Shown here: piece after piece, positions 1,532-23,063 of the stretch
Layout: every line of letters begins with the position of its first letter
Position numbering within the stretch: the stretch's first letter is position 1
Source of the DNA: a virus
Virus record (IMG/VR): IMGVR_UViG_3300029826_000019
Location: 1 to 23,063 of that record
Length of the DNA stretch: 23,063 nucleotides
Reading direction: 5' to 3' (one strand)
Notes under the pieces: generated by a model
The model's input: only the letters and a program-made list of their open reading frames with translations
Database searches by the model: none
Told to the model about the DNA's origin: nothing
Program-made: the position numbers and the translations under genes

Positions 1532-3589
1532 TTAGTGAACTCTCATGGATGGCGGCATAAGAACCTGCTGTAGCTTCTGCACGTTATCCAGTTTTGTGCC
1601 CGTAATTTCTTGCAAGGCATGAGTGCTTTTAATGCCAAGATTTTGTATTTCTGCTGCTGTCTTCATGCGCTCGGTTTGTGCTTTAAATGCCTTCACTTGC
1701 ACATCGGCCTGCTTGGTCTGCGCATTTATTTGGTCAGCCTGAGCCTTACCGATTTCTGCCTGAGCAGCCAACAACATCGGGTCCGGCGCTTGATTCTGCT
1801 GTGATTGCTGTGCCTGCTGCAAAAATGCTTTCTCTTCATCTGATTCTGGCTCAATTATGCCCTGCAATATCAACTGCTTCCGCGCATATTCTCGCAAATC
1901 ATCCATTTTTGGACCATCAAGAAGAGTAAGATAAGTCAGCAGAATTATGTTGCCTTCTGGTGTTCCCTGGAGAACGGTAAACAGTTCTTTCAGTTCTGCC
2001 CTGGCTTGTTCTTTTTGCGTCGAGAATGATGGGCCCGGGTCTGCATAAACCTCAAATTTTCCTTTTGAAATGTCATTCAAAACAATATCTTGCTGAGTTT
2101 CTGGGTCGAATACTGTTTCCTGTATCTTTACATCCTTCTCTGTACCATCAGGTAATGTTATATCAACTTCGCGGGGTACATCATAGAGTTCAGCCGCCAT
2201 GGATGCATATATTCTGCCGGCCTGCTTCATGGCAAGCGCGAACGAGTTCTGATAGAGGAACGTCTCCATGTTCTGGAATGATCGCGCCTGCGTGATCTGG
2301 GCATCTGTAACCTGCCCTGACAACATCTGGTTTTGATCCAGCTGGGTTCCAGTAACATCATCCACAGCTCTACGGGTAAGCTCCAATAAGCCTACAATAG
2401 ATTGAGGTATCTGGGGCGGCGGAGAAGTCGCAATGGGGCCGGGAGGGTATGGCTGCCCTGTCAATTTACTGACCTCATTCAGCTGACGATAGGGAAGGTC
2501 TTCGCCGGCTTGAGTCCAATAGATTTCCTGACCCTGTATTTGCCCAGGATAGAAGACAGGCTTTTCCCGTGGTGTGGTTGCTACTGTACCGGCCGTATAA
2601 CTCATAGACCAGTTATGCAGCCTTTGGGCATCTTGAGCGTCCCAGTAGATCCCACGCCAAATCTCCCGGCCTTCTACCCTGGACCAATCCCCATAAACAG
2701 GAACTACAGGGATGTGCTCGCCTGGCACCCGCTGAGTTTTTAGAATGCTTTTGCCATCAACTAGATATTTGGTAACAATCCAGCGATCCTTGAACTTTTG
2801 CCCAATCTGTTGAAATCCGCCCTGCTCCATTTCGTCAATCACGTCTTTGACTTTGCTGGCATACACGGCCATGGTCTGGCCCAGTGGATCTTCGAAAATT
2901 AGGACTTTTTCGCGCTTCTTTTCCTTGAAGTAGAATTCAGCTACTTTTACTTGGTCTTTGCTTGAACCCCAAAAGAAAACATTGGATGTATTGGGGTCTT
3001 TGAAGGGCGATGGGCTTTCTTCATATGTTAACTTGTTTTCCTGGCAATACTGTTTCCAGCCATCCTTTGTGAATGTTGAAAGTACTGCGCACCAGCGGGC
3101 ATCAGATTTATCCTTTTTCTTTGCATTTGCATCCCAATAAACAACGTTATTCGCCTCATTGATTGGCTCAGCGCGAATCCGCTGATAGTTGTTCATATCA
3201 TCAAACTGGGATTCGTATTCCGTTACATATCGGAATGCCCCATATCCACAATCCACCTGATCCTGAAGGGCTGTTTCAATAGCTTCCTCTGACCTCAGCA
3301 TGTCAGCTCGATACATCCCTGAAAGCGTTTCTGCCGCATCAGGATCAGCACCGTCTTTTGCCTTGAATGTAATGTCAATAGGATTTGACCACAGTTCAGC
3401 AAGAATGCGATTACGCTTCGATTTGATTAGGTCGAACGTCCCCCTAAAGTCGGCGTTAACATCCTGCCCTATAATGTCATCCCATTGGCTAATACGGCCA
3501 AATACCAACATGTTACTGGCTTCTTCACGGGTTGCGCTCGTGCTTGAATCAGCAGCATCAACGAGTTTTTTGATTTGCTCTAAATCCAT
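1532..3589 (-). CDS. P22-like portal protein
   Basis: 685 residues, against 725 for P22 gp1. It forms the dodecameric ring at the single capsid vertex through which DNA enters and leaves. Matches to gp1 run the whole length: RISQWDD near residue 32, NPID then KDGADPDAA near 70-85, SGMYR-x-DM, DKSDARWC near 160, GEHIPVVPVYG near 285, VLNDI and DPGPSFS near 510-525, and LLTYLTLLDG near 555. The end is Q/A-rich and helical, like the gp1 barrel. It overlaps the terminase gene by 32 bp, implying coupled translation. The slightly short C terminus suggests a shorter barrel. Confidence 0.95.
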   Translation of the reverse strand: MDLEQIKKLVDAADSSTSATREEASNMLVFGRISQWDDIIGQDVNADFRGTFDLIKSKRNRILAELWSNPIDITFKAKDGADPDAAETLSGMYRADMLRSEEAIETALQDQVDCGYGAFRYVTEYESQFDDMNNYQRIRAEPINEANNVVYWDANAKKKDKSDARWCAVLSTFTKDGWKQYCQENKLTYEESPSPFKDPNTSNVFFWGSSKDQVKVAEFYFKEKKREKVLIFEDPLGQTMAVYASKVKDVIDEMEQGGFQQIGQKFKDRWIVTKYLVDGKSILKTQRVPGEHIPVVPVYGDWSRVEGREIWRGIYWDAQDAQRLHNWSMSYTAGTVATTPREKPVFYPGQIQGQEIYWTQAGEDLPYRQLNEVSKLTGQPYPPGPIATSPPPQIPQSIVGLLELTRRAVDDVTGTQLDQNQMLSGQVTDAQITQARSFQNMETFLYQNSFALAMKQAGRIYASMAAELYDVPREVDITLPDGTEKDVKIQETVFDPETQQDIVLNDISKGKFEVYADPGPSFSTQKEQARAELKELFTVLQGTPEGNIILLTYLTLLDGPKMDDLREYARKQLILQGIIEPESDEEKAFLQQAQQSQQNQAPDPMLLAAQAEIGKAQADQINAQTKQADVQVKAFKAQTERMKTAAEIQNLGIKSTHALQEITGTKLDNVQKLQQVLMPPSMRVH

Positions 3590-5090
3590 TCCGCGAACCC
3601 ATAGGCCTTATTGGTGGAGGGACATATGTTTCTTGAACAACCGAATGAATGCGACCTGCAAGCGCGCCCATTGCGATATACTGAAGTGCATCATGAGGAT
3701 GAGAATATAAATTCTTTTCTGGCTCCTCCTTGTATCTCGCATCACCAGAGACGTTGAGAAGTCGGTATTTATAACCACCCTGGAATCCTTTTCTGATAAT
3801 CTTGCAGCGCCTATCTATAACCAAGCCGGGCTGCCCATCAACCATTTTTGTCAGATAGTGTCTTACTGACTCTGTACGCTTCACAATGATATTGCTTGGC
3901 GCTCCTTCTGTCAGAAATCCCATTTCCAAAGGAACGGTTTGTTCTTCGTCATCTGTTGAAATGTCATTCAAGATGTTAAGCGATGCTTTTGCCTCTGTTT
4001 CGTGTCTGATCTTTCCAGCCGGATCAGCCATGGAAAGCCCAATACTTGCAATAGAGTATTTCTGGGCTAAAAAAGGTTTTACCACGTCTCTGGCGAACTG
4101 TTTTACGCCCATATCTGTTGCGGCAAGTTCATCTATTATTCTCAGTTGTCCCCTGTCAGTAATCTGAACAATTACTATACAGGGAGTTAGCCCAAAATCC
4201 CATCCTATGCCGATGGGCAAATGAGGAAGGAAGTTAACGCCTGACTCTGGGCAATGGACAAGATCATTGTATTCTGGGTAAACAGGCTTCCCATCGACTA
4301 CCAAACCATACTCGTTGCCCAGGTTCACCGAAATCCAGTCAGATGATTTTCCAGCCATACCCTTTTCATAATACCCGGGCGGAAGGTTACTCAGATTCTC
4401 GGCGTTCGGGTTAGGCTCAAATATCGGTTGCCCCAATTCGTTTTTCCTGTCGGTCCTGATAACCCCGCCAGGCTGACGATAGAAATCCCAACCTTCCGGA
4501 TGATCTTCCTCGGCTAGCTTATAATACCAGTGAACATCATCAGGGGCGTTAGTATCGCCAATCATTCCGTGCCAAGTAGGGCCAATACCGCCAGTAGCCA
4601 TCGATGGGTATCGTCCATGCCGAAGATCAGCCATGTCAACGACCGCTTTGGGTAATTCTTTAACCTCATTCAGCCAGAACCCTGTGGCTTGCGCTCCGCG
4701 TAATTTTTTAACATGCTCAGGCCTATCAAGAGCGAGAAAAATTACCTCAGTTTGAACCATTGTGCCGTCATCAAGCCTAAATTGCGCTTTCCATGATGGA
4801 GGTTCCTTGTTTCCTGCCTTAAAAGTTCCGAGATCACCAAAAAGACCAGTCCAGTCCTTAATTGTCGTTGAAAACAGTTCAGAATATGTGTTCCTGATGG
4901 CAATCCATCTGGTTGGCCGAATTCCTTCTTTGTTTGGCTCCTGCTCCGTCATTAGCTTTATGATTTTTTGGCAAGCCTGAATGGTTTTACCTGAACCAAG
5001 CGGCCCCATGATAAAACTTACCCTAGCTCTCGATCTATGGAATTTCGCAAGGACTTCACCCTGCGCTTTCATCCTGATCTGTGTCTGCAT
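3558..5090 (-). CDS. Terminase large subunit (packaging ATPase and nuclease)
   Basis: 510 residues. The N-terminal ATPase has a Walker A loop GPLGSGKT at 29-36 and a Walker B-type FWLNEVKE near 138-145. The C-terminal RNase H-like nuclease shows three spaced acidic residues: D298 in GIGWDFG, D356 in SMADPAG and D467 in HPHDALQY. The enzyme cuts concatemeric DNA and pumps it into the procapsid through the portal. It overlaps the small terminase by 35 bp and the portal by 32 bp, forming a tightly coupled packaging module. I kept the ATG at 5090; an ATG six codons on (5072) is possible. Confidence 0.95.
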   Translation of the reverse strand: MQTQIRMKAQGEVLAKFHRSRARVSFIMGPLGSGKTIQACQKIIKLMTEQEPNKEGIRPTRWIAIRNTYSELFSTTIKDWTGLFGDLGTFKAGNKEPPSWKAQFRLDDGTMVQTEVIFLALDRPEHVKKLRGAQATGFWLNEVKELPKAVVDMADLRHGRYPSMATGGIGPTWHGMIGDTNAPDDVHWYYKLAEEDHPEGWDFYRQPGGVIRTDRKNELGQPIFEPNPNAENLSNLPPGYYEKGMAGKSSDWISVNLGNEYGLVVDGKPVYPEYNDLVHCPESGVNFLPHLPIGIGWDFGLTPCIVIVQITDRGQLRIIDELAATDMGVKQFARDVVKPFLAQKYSIASIGLSMADPAGKIRHETEAKASLNILNDISTDDEEQTVPLEMGFLTEGAPSNIIVKRTESVRHYLTKMVDGQPGLVIDRRCKIIRKGFQGGYKYRLLNVSGDARYKEEPEKNLYSHPHDALQYIAMGALAGRIHSVVQETYVPPPIRPMGSRNGFRANQKTR

Positions 5091-5505
5091 CTTCGCCCGT
5101 CAGGTCAATGATTTTAACGGTTTTAACGTTAACATCGTGCTCTTGCTTGTCTCGCCACTCATCCGGGCGTCGATTCTTGAGCCAGAAAATAGCTGCAACA
5201 GTATCAGGAGGGTAGTGTTTAACGGTAGGAACCACCATAGGCTCCCCATTATTGTTGAAAATCTTATCTTCAGGGCAACTGTAGCCTGTGGCTCGTTCAT
5301 ACAGAGACCTAACGACCCTTTCGTCAGCCTCGGCCTTCCACTTATCCAGCATTTCTTTGAATTCTGGATGCGCGTTCTGCCAACGATACCAGGTTGCAAT
5401 CCCGACATCGAAAAATTCAGCCAAGTCATTGTTAGTGAGGCCTAGCTTTGCTAGCTTTTCTACTTTTGATAGGTCAATGCCATCAAACTTTGAATTTTGG
5501 CCCAT
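5056..5505 (-). CDS. Terminase small subunit
   Basis: 149 residues. The N terminus (about 10-45) reads as a helix-turn-helix: LAKLGLTNNDLAEFFDV then TWYRWQNAHPEF, typical of DNA-recognising small terminases. After it comes the common E-x-x-LYERATGYSCPE-x-K segment (about 85-100), then PPD-x-x-A-x-x-FWLKNRRP-x-EWRDK (about 115-135), a signature of phage TerS families. The tail is acidic. The ATG shares one base with the stop of the upstream gene (TAATG). It should bind the packaging site and recruit the large subunit. Confidence 0.92.
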   Translation of the reverse strand: MGQNSKFDGIDLSKVEKLAKLGLTNNDLAEFFDVGIATWYRWQNAHPEFKEMLDKWKAEADERVVRSLYERATGYSCPEDKIFNNNGEPMVVPTVKHYPPDTVAAIFWLKNRRPDEWRDKQEHDVNVKTVKIIDLTGEDADTDQDESAG

Positions 5506-14784: not shown

Positions 14785-16160
14785 AATTGTCTTCTCCTGC
14801 TTTTCGCGTATGGTATCTGTTCGACAATATCAGAAGGCTTGTCACCTGGAACAAATCTGCAAAATCCAAGTTGCGCATTAAACCAATCAGTCCCAGTCTG
14901 ACCGCCGCGAACCTTCCGCGAAATAAGCTCCATGACTTCTGGGTATGAAGTGTCTGCGTTATAAACCACATCGCGATATACAAAGGCGATCACATCTGCG
15001 TCCTGCTCGATGTTTCCCGATTGCCGAAGGTCTGACATGATCGGGCGCCTGTTCGGTCTGTCGTCGCACTTACGGCTGAGCTGGCAAAGCGCCACCACAG
15101 GGCAATTCAGTTCCTTGGCGAGGCGCTTAAGGCCAGCAGATACCTTGCCCACCCGGATGACTTCATTTTCGCCATCGGCTTCGACAAGGTGCATGTGGTC
15201 AACAACAATGAGCGAAAGTGTTTTTATTCTCTGAATACGTTTTGCGCGTGAAATGATCTGGCTGATTGATAGTGCAGGCGTCTGGTCAATTATCAAATCT
15301 GAATCTTTTGAATTGCCCACAAGACGCGTCAACTTTGGCCACTCTTCTTCATCGAAATCGGCCCGGCGCACTTTGTCGTAGGGAAGATTGCAGAAATCCG
15401 CTGTCAGCCGTCCAATCAACTCCTCCTCGGGCATTTCGAGCGAAAAGTACATGGCGGCTTTGCCTAGCGAAAAAACCGCGTGGCGGGCCATATTGAGACC
15501 AACAACAGACTTGCCCATAGCCGGGCGGCCAGCTATGACGATCAAAGCTCCAGGCTGCAGACCTCCGAGGCGCTCATCAAAATTGGAATATCCGCTTGGC
15601 AATCCGGTAATACCGCCCTCTGCCATCCTGCACTTGTCCAGATGCTCCAGGAACTTGCGCATGCCTTCCCGTATCCATCGGGGCCCCTGCTCGCTGGTAT
15701 TGGCGCTCAGAGCGCTAAGCTGTTCGTGAGCAGCCTCCAGGCGCTCGGTCAGGGTGCGGTTTGCATCCATTGCCAAGGTCTGAATTGCCATGCCGGCTTG
15801 GTACATCATGCGCAACTTGGAATATTCAGCGACCTTGGCGGCATAGGCCGTTACGTTGTAATCGCTGGGAGTGTTCTTGCTGATCGTGGCGCAAGTCACC
15901 CACCAGTTTGTGTCGCGATGCGTTTTTTCCAGATGATCAGCCAGCAAGCCGATGTCCAAGGTATCGCCCCGATTTTGAATATCGGTCATGGCCTCGAAGA
16001 TGCGGCGGTTCTCAAGCCGGAAAAAATCCTTGTGCGATACGATGGCCGCGACGTCTTCAAACCGCTCAGGATTGATCAGGATGCCTCCCAGCGTGAATTG
16101 CTCGGCCTCGATACTGAACAGGCGCTCGACGTCCATCATCGGCTCGTGGTCAGGCTGCAT
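14781..16160 (-). CDS. Replicative DNA helicase, DnaB family
   Basis: 459 residues, the usual DnaB length. The N-terminal domain begins with the E-A-E-Q-x-x-LGG-I-L signature (about 18-28) and continues with FF-x-x-x-x-R-x-I-F-x-A (about 46-57). The RecA-like C-terminal domain has GLPSGY-x-x-D near 186-195, Walker A GRPAMGKS at 211-218, FSLEMPEEEL near 239-248, Walker B SLIVVD at 316-321 and a QLSR-x-CDDR-x-x-RP-x-x-SDLR-SG-IEQDADV motif. It unwinds DNA ahead of the fork. It follows the initiator with an 11-bp overlap, the order of phage replication modules with their own helicase (as in P22 gene 18/12). Confidence 0.95.
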   Translation of the reverse strand: MQPDHEPMMDVERLFSIEAEQFTLGGILINPERFEDVAAIVSHKDFFRLENRRIFEAMTDIQNRGDTLDIGLLADHLEKTHRDTNWWVTCATISKNTPSDYNVTAYAAKVAEYSKLRMMYQAGMAIQTLAMDANRTLTERLEAAHEQLSALSANTSEQGPRWIREGMRKFLEHLDKCRMAEGGITGLPSGYSNFDERLGGLQPGALIVIAGRPAMGKSVVGLNMARHAVFSLGKAAMYFSLEMPEEELIGRLTADFCNLPYDKVRRADFDEEEWPKLTRLVGNSKDSDLIIDQTPALSISQIISRAKRIQRIKTLSLIVVDHMHLVEADGENEVIRVGKVSAGLKRLAKELNCPVVALCQLSRKCDDRPNRRPIMSDLRQSGNIEQDADVIAFVYRDVVYNADTSYPEVMELISRKVRGGQTGTDWFNAQLGFCRFVPGDKPSDIVEQIPYAKSRRRQL

Positions 16161-19224: not shown

Positions 19225-19442
19225 GCGGCCTCCACCCGAACCCGCCCCAACTCCCCAGGCTCCAAAACGTCACTGGCATAATCCAGAAGCGTCAGACCAT
19301 CCTCGAAAAACATGCGCTTCGTCGTGCCGTTTGAAATTTTGCCCAATGCGTCTTTGCTCAGGCCGGTTTCTTTGGCCACGGTGGTGGTTGATTTTCCGTG
19401 TGAGCGCAGGAGTGAGATTAGGAGTTGCCAGTTGATTTTCAT
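19221..19442 (-). CDS. Small helix-turn-helix (Cro-like) DNA-binding protein
   Basis: 73 residues. WQLLISLLRSHGKSTTTVAKETGLSKDALGKISNGTTKR is a helix-turn-helix of the Cro/XRE type: a first helix, then V-A-x-x-TG-S-x-x-x-L-x-x-I-x-x-G. The rest (FFEDGLTLLDYASDVL-PGELGRV) is helical. It would bind an operator as a dimer; the palindrome near 11.1 kb or the divergent region near 22.6 kb are possible sites. It overlaps the methyltransferase stop by 4 bp. Confidence 0.7.
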   Translation of the reverse strand: MKINWQLLISLLRSHGKSTTTVAKETGLSKDALGKISNGTTKRMFFEDGLTLLDYASDVLEPGELGRVRVEAA

Positions 19443-21028
19443 GCTTTGTCCGCCATCAAAATCACGACTGCAATCGAAGTGCCAGCAAATTCGTTTTCAT
19501 AGGGACCGTGCCATACGCAAGACCAACCAGGCAGGATGTCCTTGCCTCTTGCTGAGGCCGGCAGAATGGAGACAAGGCGACCACCGTTAGTGACCTGCTC
19601 TGCTGCTGCCTGAACATGCGCCTGCCATCTTCCGTCGCTGAAAGGGGGGTTCATGACAATGCGATCGAAACTGCCACGGCCTGGGTGCTTGAGAAAATCT
19701 CCGGTGACAACGTAGCGACCTTTTACCCGCAAAACTTCTGCCCGCAATTTGCTAACCTCGATGCAGGTCAGGTGCTTGCACTCAGGAATCAGATCGGCAA
19801 TTGCGCCAGTTCCTGCGCTGGGCTCCAGAACCATGTGATGCGGCTCAATTTCTGCCAGCCCAATTGCAATGAGCGCCAACTTTTCGGGCGTGGGGTAAAA
19901 CTGATGTGATTTGTCGTCAGGAATGCAGCCGCTGCAAACAATCCAATCCAGAGCAGCCTGGGGGTCGTAATCAAACCGCCAGAACCCGAGCTTGTCAGGC
20001 TCGCCACCAATGCTTTCCAGTACACGTTCCGCCTCTTTCACTGCGAATTTGTTGTCACGGTAGGCAATAGGCAAATATCGCGTATTGGGGATTCTTTTGA
20101 ACTGGCGGCGAATCTCATCAACCAGTTCCTGCGCTTCTTCCAGCTTTGCCAGGATATTGACAACATCAAAAGGCAATGGCCGCTGAATAAGCTGGACGTC
20201 TTTTGTTTTGCGCTTCGGCTTCTGGCGGAATTTTGGCGGAATAGCCATGGGGTAAATGCTGGCCAGTACAGCATTCAGGCGCCATGCCATGTCTGGGTGA
20301 ACTTCGATATGTGCAGTTCCGACTCCGGCGTAAACGCGGATTTTCAACGCCCCTCCATCCAGCAGCATCCACTGTCCTGGATTTCGTTTGCATGCTCGAA
20401 TGACTTGGTCAGTGGCGCCATAGCCGGGTTCGTCCCGGCCCATGAATTTCGCAACCACAGCGCGAAGGTCGCCTATATAACCGGCTTTGCTGCTGTTGGT
20501 CAGACCAAAGCTGTCGATGACAGATCCCACTATCATGCGCTTGCCAAAGCCTTCGGGTCGGTTCGTGACGTGCTCGCCGGACAATGCCCTGAATATTCCA
20601 TCGACGCGCTCAGCGAAAAACTGCGAGCGCATCTGCAGCAAATCCATCAGGGTATTGCGCACGGTCTCTTCCTCGAAATCAGGCGCCTTTTTCTCGCGGA
20701 TCAGGTCAAACCATTCGTCCCGCCGTTTTTGCGGCATGCAGTCTATAACATCAGTGAGCTTTAGGGTGCGCTGCCAGTATTCAGAGTTGAGCGCCGCGAC
20801 CGCTCCAGGAACATCGAATAGCCTTTCCAGGTGGTACCATTGATCGCGTCGATCGCGATTGCCTTCGATGAAATAGCCAATAGTGCCAGACAGCTCGCCG
20901 GTCATGATCGCAGCCGTGCGCTCAATTTTTTCGCGGGTCGCTCTGTATTGTGCAACCAGGCCGTCAACCATGTCGGTCGATGCCGGTGCGAAAAATTTAA
21001 AATCTGCAATTTCGGCTGCTGCTGTCAT
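19439..21028 (-). CDS. DUF4942-type N6-adenine DNA methyltransferase
   Basis: 529 residues from the ATG at 21028 with GAGGA upstream; a TTG at 21049 would add seven residues. The first 270 or so residues are the helical DUF4942 region seen in phage methyltransferases (RDRRDQWYHLERLFDVPGAVAAL, MQSQFF-type helices, an F-SG-H-TN block). The C-terminal catalytic domain has FYPTPEKLA (about 377), motif I VLEPSAGTGAI (about 400-410), IEVSKLRAEVL, and motif IV IVMNPPFSDGRW (about 457-468), the NPPF of amino-methylating enzymes. It would methylate adenine in phage DNA and so resist host restriction. A second, cytosine-type enzyme is encoded 1 kb on. Confidence 0.85.
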   Translation of the reverse strand: MTAAAEIADFKFFAPASTDMVDGLVAQYRATREKIERTAAIMTGELSGTIGYFIEGNRDRRDQWYHLERLFDVPGAVAALNSEYWQRTLKLTDVIDCMPQKRRDEWFDLIREKKAPDFEEETVRNTLMDLLQMRSQFFAERVDGIFRALSGEHVTNRPEGFGKRMIVGSVIDSFGLTNSSKAGYIGDLRAVVAKFMGRDEPGYGATDQVIRACKRNPGQWMLLDGGALKIRVYAGVGTAHIEVHPDMAWRLNAVLASIYPMAIPPKFRQKPKRKTKDVQLIQRPLPFDVVNILAKLEEAQELVDEIRRQFKRIPNTRYLPIAYRDNKFAVKEAERVLESIGGEPDKLGFWRFDYDPQAALDWIVCSGCIPDDKSHQFYPTPEKLALIAIGLAEIEPHHMVLEPSAGTGAIADLIPECKHLTCIEVSKLRAEVLRVKGRYVVTGDFLKHPGRGSFDRIVMNPPFSDGRWQAHVQAAAEQVTNGGRLVSILPASARGKDILPGWSCVWHGPYENEFAGTSIAVVILMADKA

Positions 21029-21041
21029 GGCTTCCTCGCTA

Positions 21042-21295: not shown

Positions 21296-21380
21296 TGGAG
21301 CAGAGACCACGAATCGAACGTGAGACCGTCGTCTTTCCTTCCGGCTGGCTTCCGGATGCTCGCCTTGAGCTTATCTCTGC
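21296..21380 (-). tRNA. Aberrant tRNA-Gly-like gene, GCC at the anticodon position, long variable arm
   Basis: On the minus strand GCAGAGA (21380-21374) pairs with TCTCTGC (21306-21300), followed by discriminator T and encoded CCA (21298-21296). T arm: TCACG, loop TTCGATT, CGTGG. Anticodon stem TCCGG/CCGGA with loop AAGCCAG: GCC at positions 34-36, but A instead of the universal U33. The D stem GCTC/GAGC has a very short loop (AAGGC). The variable region has 16 nt with an AGAC/GTCT stem. G1:C72, C2:G71, C35, C36 and U73 are the E. coli glycine identity elements. It may be a degenerate or a specialised tRNA. Confidence 0.65.
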
Positions 21381-21386
21381 GTTGTT

Positions 21387-21463
21387 TGGTGCGCCAGACA
21401 GGGGTCGAACCTGCAACGTTCCGATTATGAGTCGGATACTCTAACCAGTTGAGTTACCGGCGC
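21387..21463 (-). tRNA. tRNA with CAU anticodon (Met, or Ile after lysidine change)
   Basis: 77 nt with encoded CCA (21389-21387). Acceptor GCGCCGG/CTGGCGC, D stem ACTC/GAGT with a GG-containing loop, anticodon stem TCCGA/TCGGA with loop CTCATAA (U33 and CAU present), 5-nt variable region, T stem GCAGG/CCTGT with loop TTCGACC. All parts of a canonical class I tRNA are present. CAU is carried by initiator and elongator Met and by Ile2; acceptor G1-C72 pairing excludes the usual initiator type. Phages often carry Ile2 or Met tRNAs. Confidence 0.92.
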
Positions 21464-21524
21464 TTGTTGATGTAGGTGCCGGGGTGCTACTCCTGGAATC
21501 GTCCGTCAGTCGGCTGAATCATGC

Positions 21525-22160
21525 GCCGGTTTATTGATCCTCAACTATTCACCGGCCTCGCGCGAAAAGGATTCGCGCGGAGTCATCTTTCACATGACGA
21601 TAGGCTTCAAATCCTCACTATGGCTCCATACTCTCACCCACACGAATGGCGGCTGCATCCACTCTTGTCGTTCTAACCAAGCTCGTGGGTGGAATACGTT
21701 GCACCGTTACCGGAATATGGCTTTCGCCTGCAACCGCCATGCGTCTAGGTCCTGGCCTTTAACGACGCCAGGGCGGTCGAGTGGTTGACAGGACTCTGCA
21801 CCATTCACAACCGCTCCCAGTGTTCCCGCGCATAATGCCGGTTCTCAGAATTGGTTGTTTAGCCACCCACTGAAAACCACTCTCCCGACGATGGACCCTC
21901 ACGCAAACGCGATCAGGCTTCAGGCAGTTCGCCATCTTTTCTCCATCTCGCCAGTGTCCGCTGGCTAAATTAGTGTTGACTCCGCCACTAACCCATACAA
22001 AGAGTGGTTATCGGTAGATGCCCCGCCGAAACGGGGCTGCACTGTAGAATTGAAGTTCACATGGCTTTACCCTCCGGCACGCTTGGCCTGTGATTCCTGG
22101 TGGTCTTCTTGCACCGCCAAAGCCCGCAAGACTGGGCGGGCTGTCGGGTTATCTTGGCGG
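21525..22160 (-). ncRNA. Candidate large structured RNA, upstream of the tRNAs (GOLLD/ROOL-like setting)
   Basis: From 21464 to 22165 (702 bp) no convincing gene appears, but inverted repeats are dense. Plus-strand arm positions: 21525-21530/21551-21556; 21559-21566/21572-21579 (8 bp); 21582-21586/21594-21598; 21646-21657/21729-21740 (12 bp, one G-U on the minus strand) enclosing three hairpins; 21751-21756/21767-21772; 21779-21786/21875-21882; 21807-21812/21853-21858; 21950-21954/21961-21965; 21970-21975/21986-21991; 22020-22025/22032-22037; 22121-22127/22136-22142 inside 22114-22120/22154-22160. Two small loops are GNRA (GAAA, GUAA) on the minus strand only, so the RNA should be leftward, the same direction as the tRNAs. 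Large ornate RNAs next to phage tRNAs are known (GOLLD, ROOL); family identity here is unproven. Confidence 0.5.
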
Positions 22161-22165
22161 ATTTA

Positions 22166-22324
22166 TTATTTATATTGCCGAATCATTGCTTCCTTTACAT
22201 ACTCGCTGGTCAGAGGGCGAAGGCGGCTATGCGCGACCCTTCCACCATTCGAGCTAATTACCCTGGCTTTACTGTATTTTCGGATCAGGTCTGCACTGCT
22301 TGTTGGGTTGTTTTTGCTTGCCAT
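22166..22324 (-). CDS. 52-residue basic protein
   Basis: ATG at 22324 with GGAG seven bases upstream, TAA at 22166. Product: MASKNNPTSSADLIRKYSKARV, then ISSNGGRVAHSRLRPLTSEYVKEAMIRQYK. It is basic, with a likely disordered start and a helical end; no motif recognised. It lies between the Cro-like gene (18 bp upstream) and the candidate structured RNA. Function unknown. Confidence 0.6.
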   Translation of the reverse strand: MASKNNPTSSADLIRKYSKARVISSNGGRVAHSRLRPLTSEYVKEAMIRQYK

Positions 22325-22342: not shown

Positions 22343-22576
22343 TTAACCTTTCTGGCCAGAAATGACCTTCACTGCCTTTCTGTTCTCAGGGCTGATCAGA
22401 TCCAGCGGGTCAATCAGGTTGTCGCAATGCCTGGCAATGTCAATTGCGGTAGGAAGAGCTGAAAACTGTAACCCCATGAAAATATTACTTAAAAGCTGCT
22501 TGCTCTTGCCTGTAGCCTTAGCCAAGGCGTTGCGCTCTTCAGAATCTAGTGACTGCCAAAAAGTTGATGGTTTCAT
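22343..22576 (-). CDS. YdaS/Cro-like helix-turn-helix regulator
   Basis: 77 residues from the ATG at 22576, chosen because GAGG lies six bases upstream; ATGs at 22582 and 22642 are in frame but less well placed. MKPSTFWQSLDSEERNALAKATGKSKQLLSNIFMGLQFSALPTAIDIARH is a helix-turn-helix of the YdaS type (L-S-EER-x-ALA-x-x-x-G-x-S-x-x-x-L), followed by a short acidic LIDPLDLISPENRKAV. Such proteins act as Cro in lambdoid phages. It is first in the leftward early operon, divergent from the hexapeptide-repeat gene, with promoters back to back. Confidence 0.75.
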   Translation of the reverse strand: MKPSTFWQSLDSEERNALAKATGKSKQLLSNIFMGLQFSALPTAIDIARHCDNLIDPLDLISPENRKAVKVISGQKG

Positions 22577-22600
22577 AAACATCCTCGCTTCAATGAGGTC

Positions 22601-22628
22601 AGAATAACATAAAAATAATATCGCGCAA
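22601..22628 (-). promoter_or_regulatory. Candidate leftward early promoter
   Basis: On the minus strand TTGCGC (22628-22623) and TATTCT (22606-22601) are 16 bp apart, with three and four of six consensus matches. The start would be near 22594, about 18 nt before the Cro-like ATG at 22576. Its -35 is only 3 bp from the -35 of the rightward promoter. Confidence 0.4.
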
Positions 22629-22689: not shown

Positions 22690-23063
22690 ATGACCACAGA
22701 CAAGCAGCAAACATTCACGCACATGTTCGGCGGATGGAAAGAGGCGCCAGCTCGCCGTTGGGTAAATCCGGACGGCAGCATCGGAGGAATTGTAGCAGTT
22801 GATGCGATCATCCCCGAAGAAACATTTATTTATGCTGAGTCGGTTGTTTGGCCCGGCGCATCCATCGGGTACCGCGCATCCATCGGGGACGACGCATCCA
22901 TCGGGGACGGCGCATCCATCGGTGACGGCGCATCCATCGGGGACGACGCATCCATCGGGGACGGCGCATCCATCGGTGACGGCGCATCCATCGGTGACGG
23001 CGCATCCATCGGGTACCGCGCATCCATCGGGTACCGCGCATCCATCGGGTCTATGTGCCGGTG
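22690..23063 (+). CDS. Hexapeptide-repeat (left-handed beta-helix) protein, N-terminal part
   Basis: ATG at 22690 behind GGGGAAGG. Open to the window end, about 124 residues so far. The first 56 residues (HMFGGWKEAPARRWVNPDG, GIVAVDAIIPEET, YAESVVWPG) lead into hexapeptides A-S-I-G-x-x, ten complete and one partial, encoded by an 18-bp repeat. The pattern I-G-D-G-A-S is the one that builds triangular left-handed beta-helices of acyltransferases and virion or polymer proteins. No transferase catalytic histidine is visible in this part. It is one of only two rightward units. Confidence 0.75.
   Translation, partial: MTTDKQQTFTHMFGGWKEAPARRWVNPDGSIGGIVAVDAIIPEETFIYAESVVWPGASIGYRASIGDDASIGDGASIGDGASIGDDASIGDGASIGDGASIGDGASIGYRASIGYRASIGSMCR
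22858..23063 (+). repeat. 18-bp tandem repeat array, reaching the right edge
   Basis: Ten complete 18-bp units from 22858 to 23037, and a diverging eleventh. The first 11 bases (GCATCCATCGG) are constant; the last seven bases vary between three types. Units 2-4 and 5-7 are the same triplet, so a 54-bp block was duplicated. The array reads in frame as A-S-I-G-D-G, A-S-I-G-D-D or A-S-I-G-Y-R. Confidence 0.9.

Follow-up and report, generated by a model that had tools for sequence, protein, structure and literature searches.

Positions 21464–22165 of the IMG/VR virus record IMGVR_UViG_3300029826_000019 raise the question of whether a gene-poor stretch of some 700 nt lying directly beside a tRNA gene encodes a large structured RNA and, if so, to which family that RNA belongs. 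An earlier note on this locus had proposed either a relative of GOLLD or ROOL or an unrelated new large RNA, read from the minus strand. The window analysed here is the whole 23,063-nt stretch of DNA from that record (positions 1 to 23,063). Judging from sequence comparison, the 21464–22165 stretch very probably encodes a large structured minus-strand RNA of a phage family that is absent from Rfam 15.

A non-coding stretch beside tRNA-Met

The stretch and its neighbours are as follows.

21464–22165, minus strand: predicted large structured non-coding RNA, boundaries approximate, with a conserved core inside
21387–21463, minus strand: tRNA-Met (CAT), directly downstream of the stretch (ARAGORN; Rfam 63.8 bits)
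21296–21380, minus strand: tRNA-Gly(gcc) call (ARAGORN)
19439–21034, minus strand: DNA methyltransferase gene, downstream and on the same strand as the RNA (phrog_6263, E 5e-190)
22166–22324, minus strand: 52-aa ORF bordering the stretch on its upstream side
22343–22603, minus strand: small upstream gene, possibly helix-turn-helix (HTH_3 at E 0.087 only, under the cut-off)

The 52-aa ORF, the stretch and tRNA-Met all lie on the minus strand, as does the rest of the phage block, which continues downstream with methyltransferases, a replication protein, DnaB and NinG; a search with the small upstream protein found nothing. The tRNA-Met gene, which starts one base past the 3′ end of the stretch, probably sets the 3′ end of the RNA. 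The tRNA-Gly call, in which the base preceding the anticodon is A, goes undetected by the Rfam tRNA model at a threshold as loose as E 10 and is probably a degenerate or decayed tRNA. On the opposite strand of the tRNA gene, the model RF04354 (Plastid-ycf2 5′UTR) matches below its cut-off at window positions 21389–21463 (plus), as it does on the reverse strand of tRNA genes in loci L148, L225, L226 and L231, which suggests that RF04354 may model an antisense tRNA. Elsewhere in the window, positions 1–200 at the left end of the contig are very strongly self-complementary (fold z −14, minus), and a sister contig (L082) carries the window's first 27 bases in inverted order; this left end is possibly an assembly palindrome. 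Near the other end, positions 22690–23061 (plus) hold a hexapeptide-repeat gene (PF00132) with near-identical DNA repeats that is broken by the contig end.

The two longest ORFs of the stretch (84 aa on the plus strand and 57 aa on the minus strand) had no match to Pfam or to any protein family, in agreement with the earlier note, which had seen no good gene here and had named conserved protein coding as evidence against an RNA; its placing of the stretch next to a tRNA was likewise accurate. The helix-rich character that it described is confirmed: there are 4 exact inverted repeats of at least 8 bp against 0.8 in shuffled sequences (4 was reached by 2 of 200), and the longest exact repeat, put at up to 12 bp in the note, is 9 bp, but one helix forms 20 pairs over 22 positions. 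The GNRA loops that it reported on the minus strand are present (21719–21728 and 21704–21713) but are not enriched, with 2 found and 1.8 expected. Folding of the whole stretch gave z-scores of −3.0 (minus) and −2.5 (plus) with 20 shuffles per strand; z-scores of 200-nt windows across it were ordinary, so folding energy alone is no proof of structure. Inverted repeats, GNRA counts and fold energy by themselves would have left the claim open, and it is the comparison of related sequences, not folding energy, that confirms the predicted structure and its strand.

A covarying pseudoknot core

Searched by blastn against phages and plasmids, the stretch had two weak matches, both overlapping one 42-nt piece, in a gap of more than 1 kb upstream of tRNA-Pro, -Thr and -Gly in Aeromonas phage ST4 and downstream of a helix-turn-helix gene on an Aquitalea plasmid; matches to Spirosoma, Pontibacter, Streptomyces and Mycobacterium plasmids were judged to be chance. 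Scanning IMG/VR with the 42-nt piece as a pattern returned 29 contigs, and a second scan that left the stem free returned 53, of which those whose stem pairs constitute the family; hits with an unpaired stem resemble chance matches within coding sequence. The same kind of scan in bacterial genomes gave 15 matches, the credible ones mostly in Betaproteobacteria. In total, a 33-nt core (21780–21748, minus) was located at about 27 distinct phage or prophage sites, including Aeromonas phage ST4, Aquitalea, Herminiimonas, Achromobacter, Chromobacterium, Comamonas, Herbaspirillum and many IMG/VR contigs. Surveys of bacterial genomes recovered it in 1 of 399 (order) and 1 of 369 (class), only in the genome already known, so the core is rare in bacteria, and a BLAST search of the core consensus against phages returned ST4 as the only credible match. 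Synteny searches with the methyltransferase and TerL genes recovered relatives (methyltransferase identity 44–59%) that have no homologous stretch, the sole near-identical phage contig stops short of it, and no close relative bearing this stretch was found. A pattern built from the GNRA hairpins retrieved four contigs, none with tRNAs nearby.

21748–21780, minus strand: core, a predicted H-type pseudoknot
21779–21776 paired with 21766–21763, minus strand: helix A of the core
21772–21767 paired with 21756–21751, minus strand: helix B of the core
21762–21757, minus strand: core loop UUAAAG

The window matches the core consensus, CNNC-CGC-SCUGGC-GNNG-UUAAAG-GCCAGS. Helix A joins the four bases before CGC to four complementary bases inside the hairpin loop, and our scans left the two middle bases on each side of it unspecified. 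At 27 of 28 sites both middle positions pair, compared with a mean of 11.6 and a maximum of 20 of 28 in 20,000 permutations, although these counts are not independent events given that related sites share ancestry; the lone non-pairing site (L216) resembles a chance match within coding sequence. Greater weight falls on the variety of complementary types, of which six are seen as middle dinucleotides: GA/UC (the window), GU/AC, CU/AG, AU/AU, GC/GC and UC/GA. Of the cells in a 24-site alignment, 99.2% pair, and the covariation score is 0.344, against 0.075 when shuffled and at most 0.075 when slid. Three of the four helix A pairs change on both sides, as does the outer pair of the hairpin stem, helix B. 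The inner stem, CUGG/CCAG, proved fixed in sequence in the free-stem scan, so most of helix B yields no covariation. The window itself carries a helix A variant that pairs (CGAC/GUCG), keeps every conserved core position and scores 53.4 bits against the covariance model R1, of which it is one of the 24 seed rows. These comparisons identify the core as an H-type pseudoknot, which also settles the strand. The minus-strand orientation favoured by the earlier note is thus borne out across relatives, and the covariation whose absence from homologues that note would have counted against an RNA is present in the pseudoknot. Some phages have two copies of the core, at 3180–3212 and 2176–2208 minus in L168 and at 3997–4030 and 4034–4066 in L148; the ST4 copies stand in tandem, the first with an inserted base in its stem.

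None of the known RNA families accounts for the stretch. With Rfam 15, tRNA alone reached its cut-off in the window and nothing else was credible at E 10. The GOLLD model (RF02032) gave no match in the stretch at E 10 and, over the whole record, a best score of 4.9 bits (cut-off 150) at 5452–5482, outside the stretch, in a search with no positive control above the cut-off; the ROOL model (RF03087) gave no match in the whole record at E 10, nor in the control genomes, leaving this search too with no positive control. The STnc100 model (RF02076) had no match in the window at E 10, and neither did the tmRNA model (RF00023), to which control genomes including E. coli do respond; ARAGORN reported no tmRNA in the window, and a search near the core for an AN-type tag found none that was credible. 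By these tests the stretch is not GOLLD, ROOL, STnc100 or tmRNA, and model search rejected every other Rfam family as well. Membership of GOLLD or ROOL, one of the two options of the earlier note, is not supported. The other, an unrelated new large RNA, is supported by a conserved core, covariation in both pseudoknot helices, an arm, a fixed strand, a phage setting, a neighbouring tRNA and the lack of a protein match.

Arms, genomic setting and tag-bearing relatives

Outside the core, one arm and several hairpins can be placed in the window.

21636–21750, minus strand: P2 arm, in which 21750–21729 pairs with 21657–21636 (20/22), enclosing the two GNRA hairpins
21525–21556, minus strand: hairpin GCCGG...CCGGC with AUCAA in its loop, seen in sequence only, with no kissing partner found in the window
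21557–21580, minus strand: hairpin CGCGCGAA/UUCGCGCG, seen in sequence, terminator-like on the plus strand only
22122–22142, minus strand: terminator-like hairpin AGCCCGC...GCGGGCU at the 5′ edge, resembling Pseudomonas plasmid intergenic hairpins

The layout of the window RNA is a compact H-type pseudoknot with a long arm directly after it and flanks that form further variable arms. The P2 arm starts directly after the pseudoknot in relatives as well, where the first 14 bases past the pseudoknot pair with a strand 39–198 nt downstream; when arms were swapped among 27 members, the mean helix score fell from 25.3 for a member's own arm to 14.9 for permuted ones, with a maximum of 17.2 among 500 permutations. 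Two hairpins, M2 and M3, follow in ST4, L158, L160, L161, L170, L178 and others, and their loops complement each other through compensating sets (GCUGAU/AUCAGC, GGUGAU/AUCACC and UUGAU/AUCAA). These kissing hairpins occur in a subset of members and are optional in the family. No clear M2/M3 kissing pair was found in the window, in which the hairpin at 21525–21556 may be a diverged counterpart of the M3 hairpin of relatives. Some arms contain degenerate tRNA-like sequences, recognised by eye, with a T-arm and an acceptor-like closing stem (L225 at about 2406–2510, L160 upstream of the core and L165 at about 1080–1160).

Relatives usually stand upstream of early recombination or replication genes or of tRNAs. 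Downstream of most core-bearing loci, translations read by eye point to RecT, Erf-like proteins, SSB, exonuclease or DNA polymerase; L165 is followed by a terminase, and tRNAs follow in the window, ST4, L154 and L158. The order in Aquitalea is a helix-turn-helix gene, a short ORF, the RNA and then ERF and SSB. Related modules lie beside tRNAs and opposite-strand genes in ST4, swi2, STGO-35-1 and KlebP_265, and in swi2 and STGO-35-1 the RNA stands alone with tRNA-Met between opposite-strand tail genes, a placement that speaks against its being purely an mRNA leader in these two phages. HK620 has a sibling module between pR′/qut and tQ.

BLAST searches with the ST4 stretch found its M2/M3 part in HK620, swi2, STGO-35-1, KlebP_265, SopranoGao, phiEt88 and many other phages, and in 738 phage records, those of Felix O1-like, Kuttervirus and Taipeivirus phages among them, there is a match to the 5′ part of the swi2 RNA. 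The swi2-type RNAs have a reading frame that starts with GCA AAC GA; as read by eye, it lies behind a pseudoknot and has its stop codon in a hairpin loop. In all 39 of the 39 distinct sequences this frame is exactly 10 codons long, under a pattern that fixed the first bases and a CTG and left the stop codon free. Translated, it gives 16 distinct full peptides that fit AN[DE]xxxL[AM][VAS]A, and a further one contains an ambiguous base; ANDNVFLAVA and ANEEMYLAVA are among the predicted tags. Three tags have enough copies for comparison, and in these 11 of the 12 sites that vary fall at the third position of a codon. The tag of E. coli tmRNA is ANDENYALAA. Positions 82–140 of the tmRNA model match the tag part in most of the phages tested, below the cut-off, and ARAGORN made no credible tmRNA call on the tag-bearing RNAs. 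M2 and M3 occur together in 14 of 77 tag loci under a strict pattern. The tag-bearing RNAs do not contain the core that marks the window's family, so the two groups are linked only through intermediates such as ST4.

The tag strings were not found in the literature searched, and tag-RNA matches in E. coli genomes are mostly unannotated among the matches listed. Tag frames behind a pseudoknot lie in mostly unannotated stretches of enteric phages, including HK620, Felix O1-like, Kuttervirus, Taipeivirus and other phages, at L225 2300, L226 2261, L179 2798, L232 1510 and L233 1542, and further at L234 1557, L235 1558, L236 1547, L241 1547 and many IMG/VR loci (L248 onward). In HK620 (AF335538.1) the tmRNA tag region is matched weakly at two separate places, 15873–15934 and 37272–37342, one of which falls between the late promoter and the lysis genes. 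A wider reading would make the window RNA a tag-less branch of a phage RNA superfamily that derives from, or imitates, the mRNA-like part of tmRNA, whose members share the layout of pseudoknot, arm and kissing hairpins, in many cases encode a ten-residue tag, and during infection engage host ribosomes that have stalled or been captured; this is speculative, and we think it rather unlikely.

Function, alternatives and known systems

The explanation that we favour overall, with a probability of roughly 55%, is an RNA of a new family whose 3′ end is cut at the tRNA and which works in trans as a scaffold. The RNA would be transcribed together with the leftward gene block, RNase P cleavage at tRNA-Met would free its 3′ end, and the folded molecule would then act in trans, most likely on the host translation machinery. 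The scaffold mechanism itself, perhaps on translation, is put forward tentatively; the link to translation is drawn from relatives in which the shared 3′ hairpin module goes with a tmRNA-like tag frame, and no tag was seen in the window itself.

The RNA might instead be a cis-acting leader of an early operon, whose pseudoknot and arms alter RNA polymerase or shield the transcript, giving read-through of terminators (compare the HK022 put RNA) or a stabilised mRNA. Because most core loci have recombination or replication genes downstream and thus open an early operon, as with ERF and SSB in Aquitalea, and the HK620 module sits between pR′/qut and tQ, this stays a serious rival, although we hold it to be doubtful: the ST4, swi2, STGO-35-1 and KlebP_265 modules adjoin tRNAs and opposite-strand genes, and the antitermination leaders known to us are all far smaller than 700 nt of structure. 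Decayed or chance-structured intergenic DNA beside tRNAs would fit the ordinary 200-nt z-scores, the unenriched GNRA loops and the lack of a close relative bearing the stretch, yet such DNA would hardly keep all conserved core positions, a pairing CGAC/GUCG variant and the R1 score of a seed member; covariation largely refutes this reading, which is highly improbable.

Size, phage setting, the neighbouring tRNA, long arms and the kissing loops of relatives would also suit an RNA-only assembly like GOLLD or ROOL (compare PMC12286853), unrelated in sequence, multimeric, made late and kept near tRNAs. We consider this improbable, as sequence and model searches gave no match to either family, the kissing partners of relatives sit in a single molecule and are able to pair intramolecularly, and many loci are in early regions. 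About as improbable is a precursor cut into small base-pairing sRNAs, as for STnc100 and PasD of lambdoid prophages, two RNAs that have been linked to each other (PMC13192938). Sub-threshold STnc100 matches do occur within related non-coding stretches of ST4 (39.1 bits) and LAh_6 (36.9 bits; cut-off 47), but the window has none, and its conserved part is a pseudoknot with an arm and not a single-stranded seed with a terminator.

The locus adds a comparatively proven large phage RNA family that is absent from Rfam 15, and the two pseudoknot helices with their natural compensatory variants are compact tests. Intermediates tie the family to RNAs that lack annotation in well-studied laboratory phages, HK620 and Felix O1 among them, so that what large phage RNAs beside tRNAs do can be tested in standard hosts. 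Should the siblings' tag frame be read, phages would run their own version of ribosome-rescue tagging.

Among known systems, GOLLD occurs in phages and prophages, often close to tRNAs, with many members longer than 800 nt and elaborate (PMC12286853); the window RNA resembles it in setting, tRNA neighbourhood and large elaborate form and differs in its motifs and in having no model match. ROOL is likewise found in phages and prophages, often beside tRNA islands, and is of comparable size, differing in the lack of any match to the window at E 10. STnc100 and the PasD sRNAs are prophage RNAs, PasD near the Q gene, and the weak matches in ST4 and LAh_6 are a point of contact; they differ in being described as base-pairing sRNAs, with a 206-nt model to which relatives score below the cut-off and the window not at all. 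Phage tmRNAs as such are already known (PMC9004378). The window RNA differs from tmRNA in having neither a credible tag near its core nor a model match, and perhaps also in lacking tRNA-like ends, and the sibling RNAs differ in scoring below the cut-off and drawing no credible ARAGORN call, whereas H-type pseudoknots with A-rich loops are a shared trait, to which the siblings alone add a ten-codon tag frame and the match to model positions 82–140.
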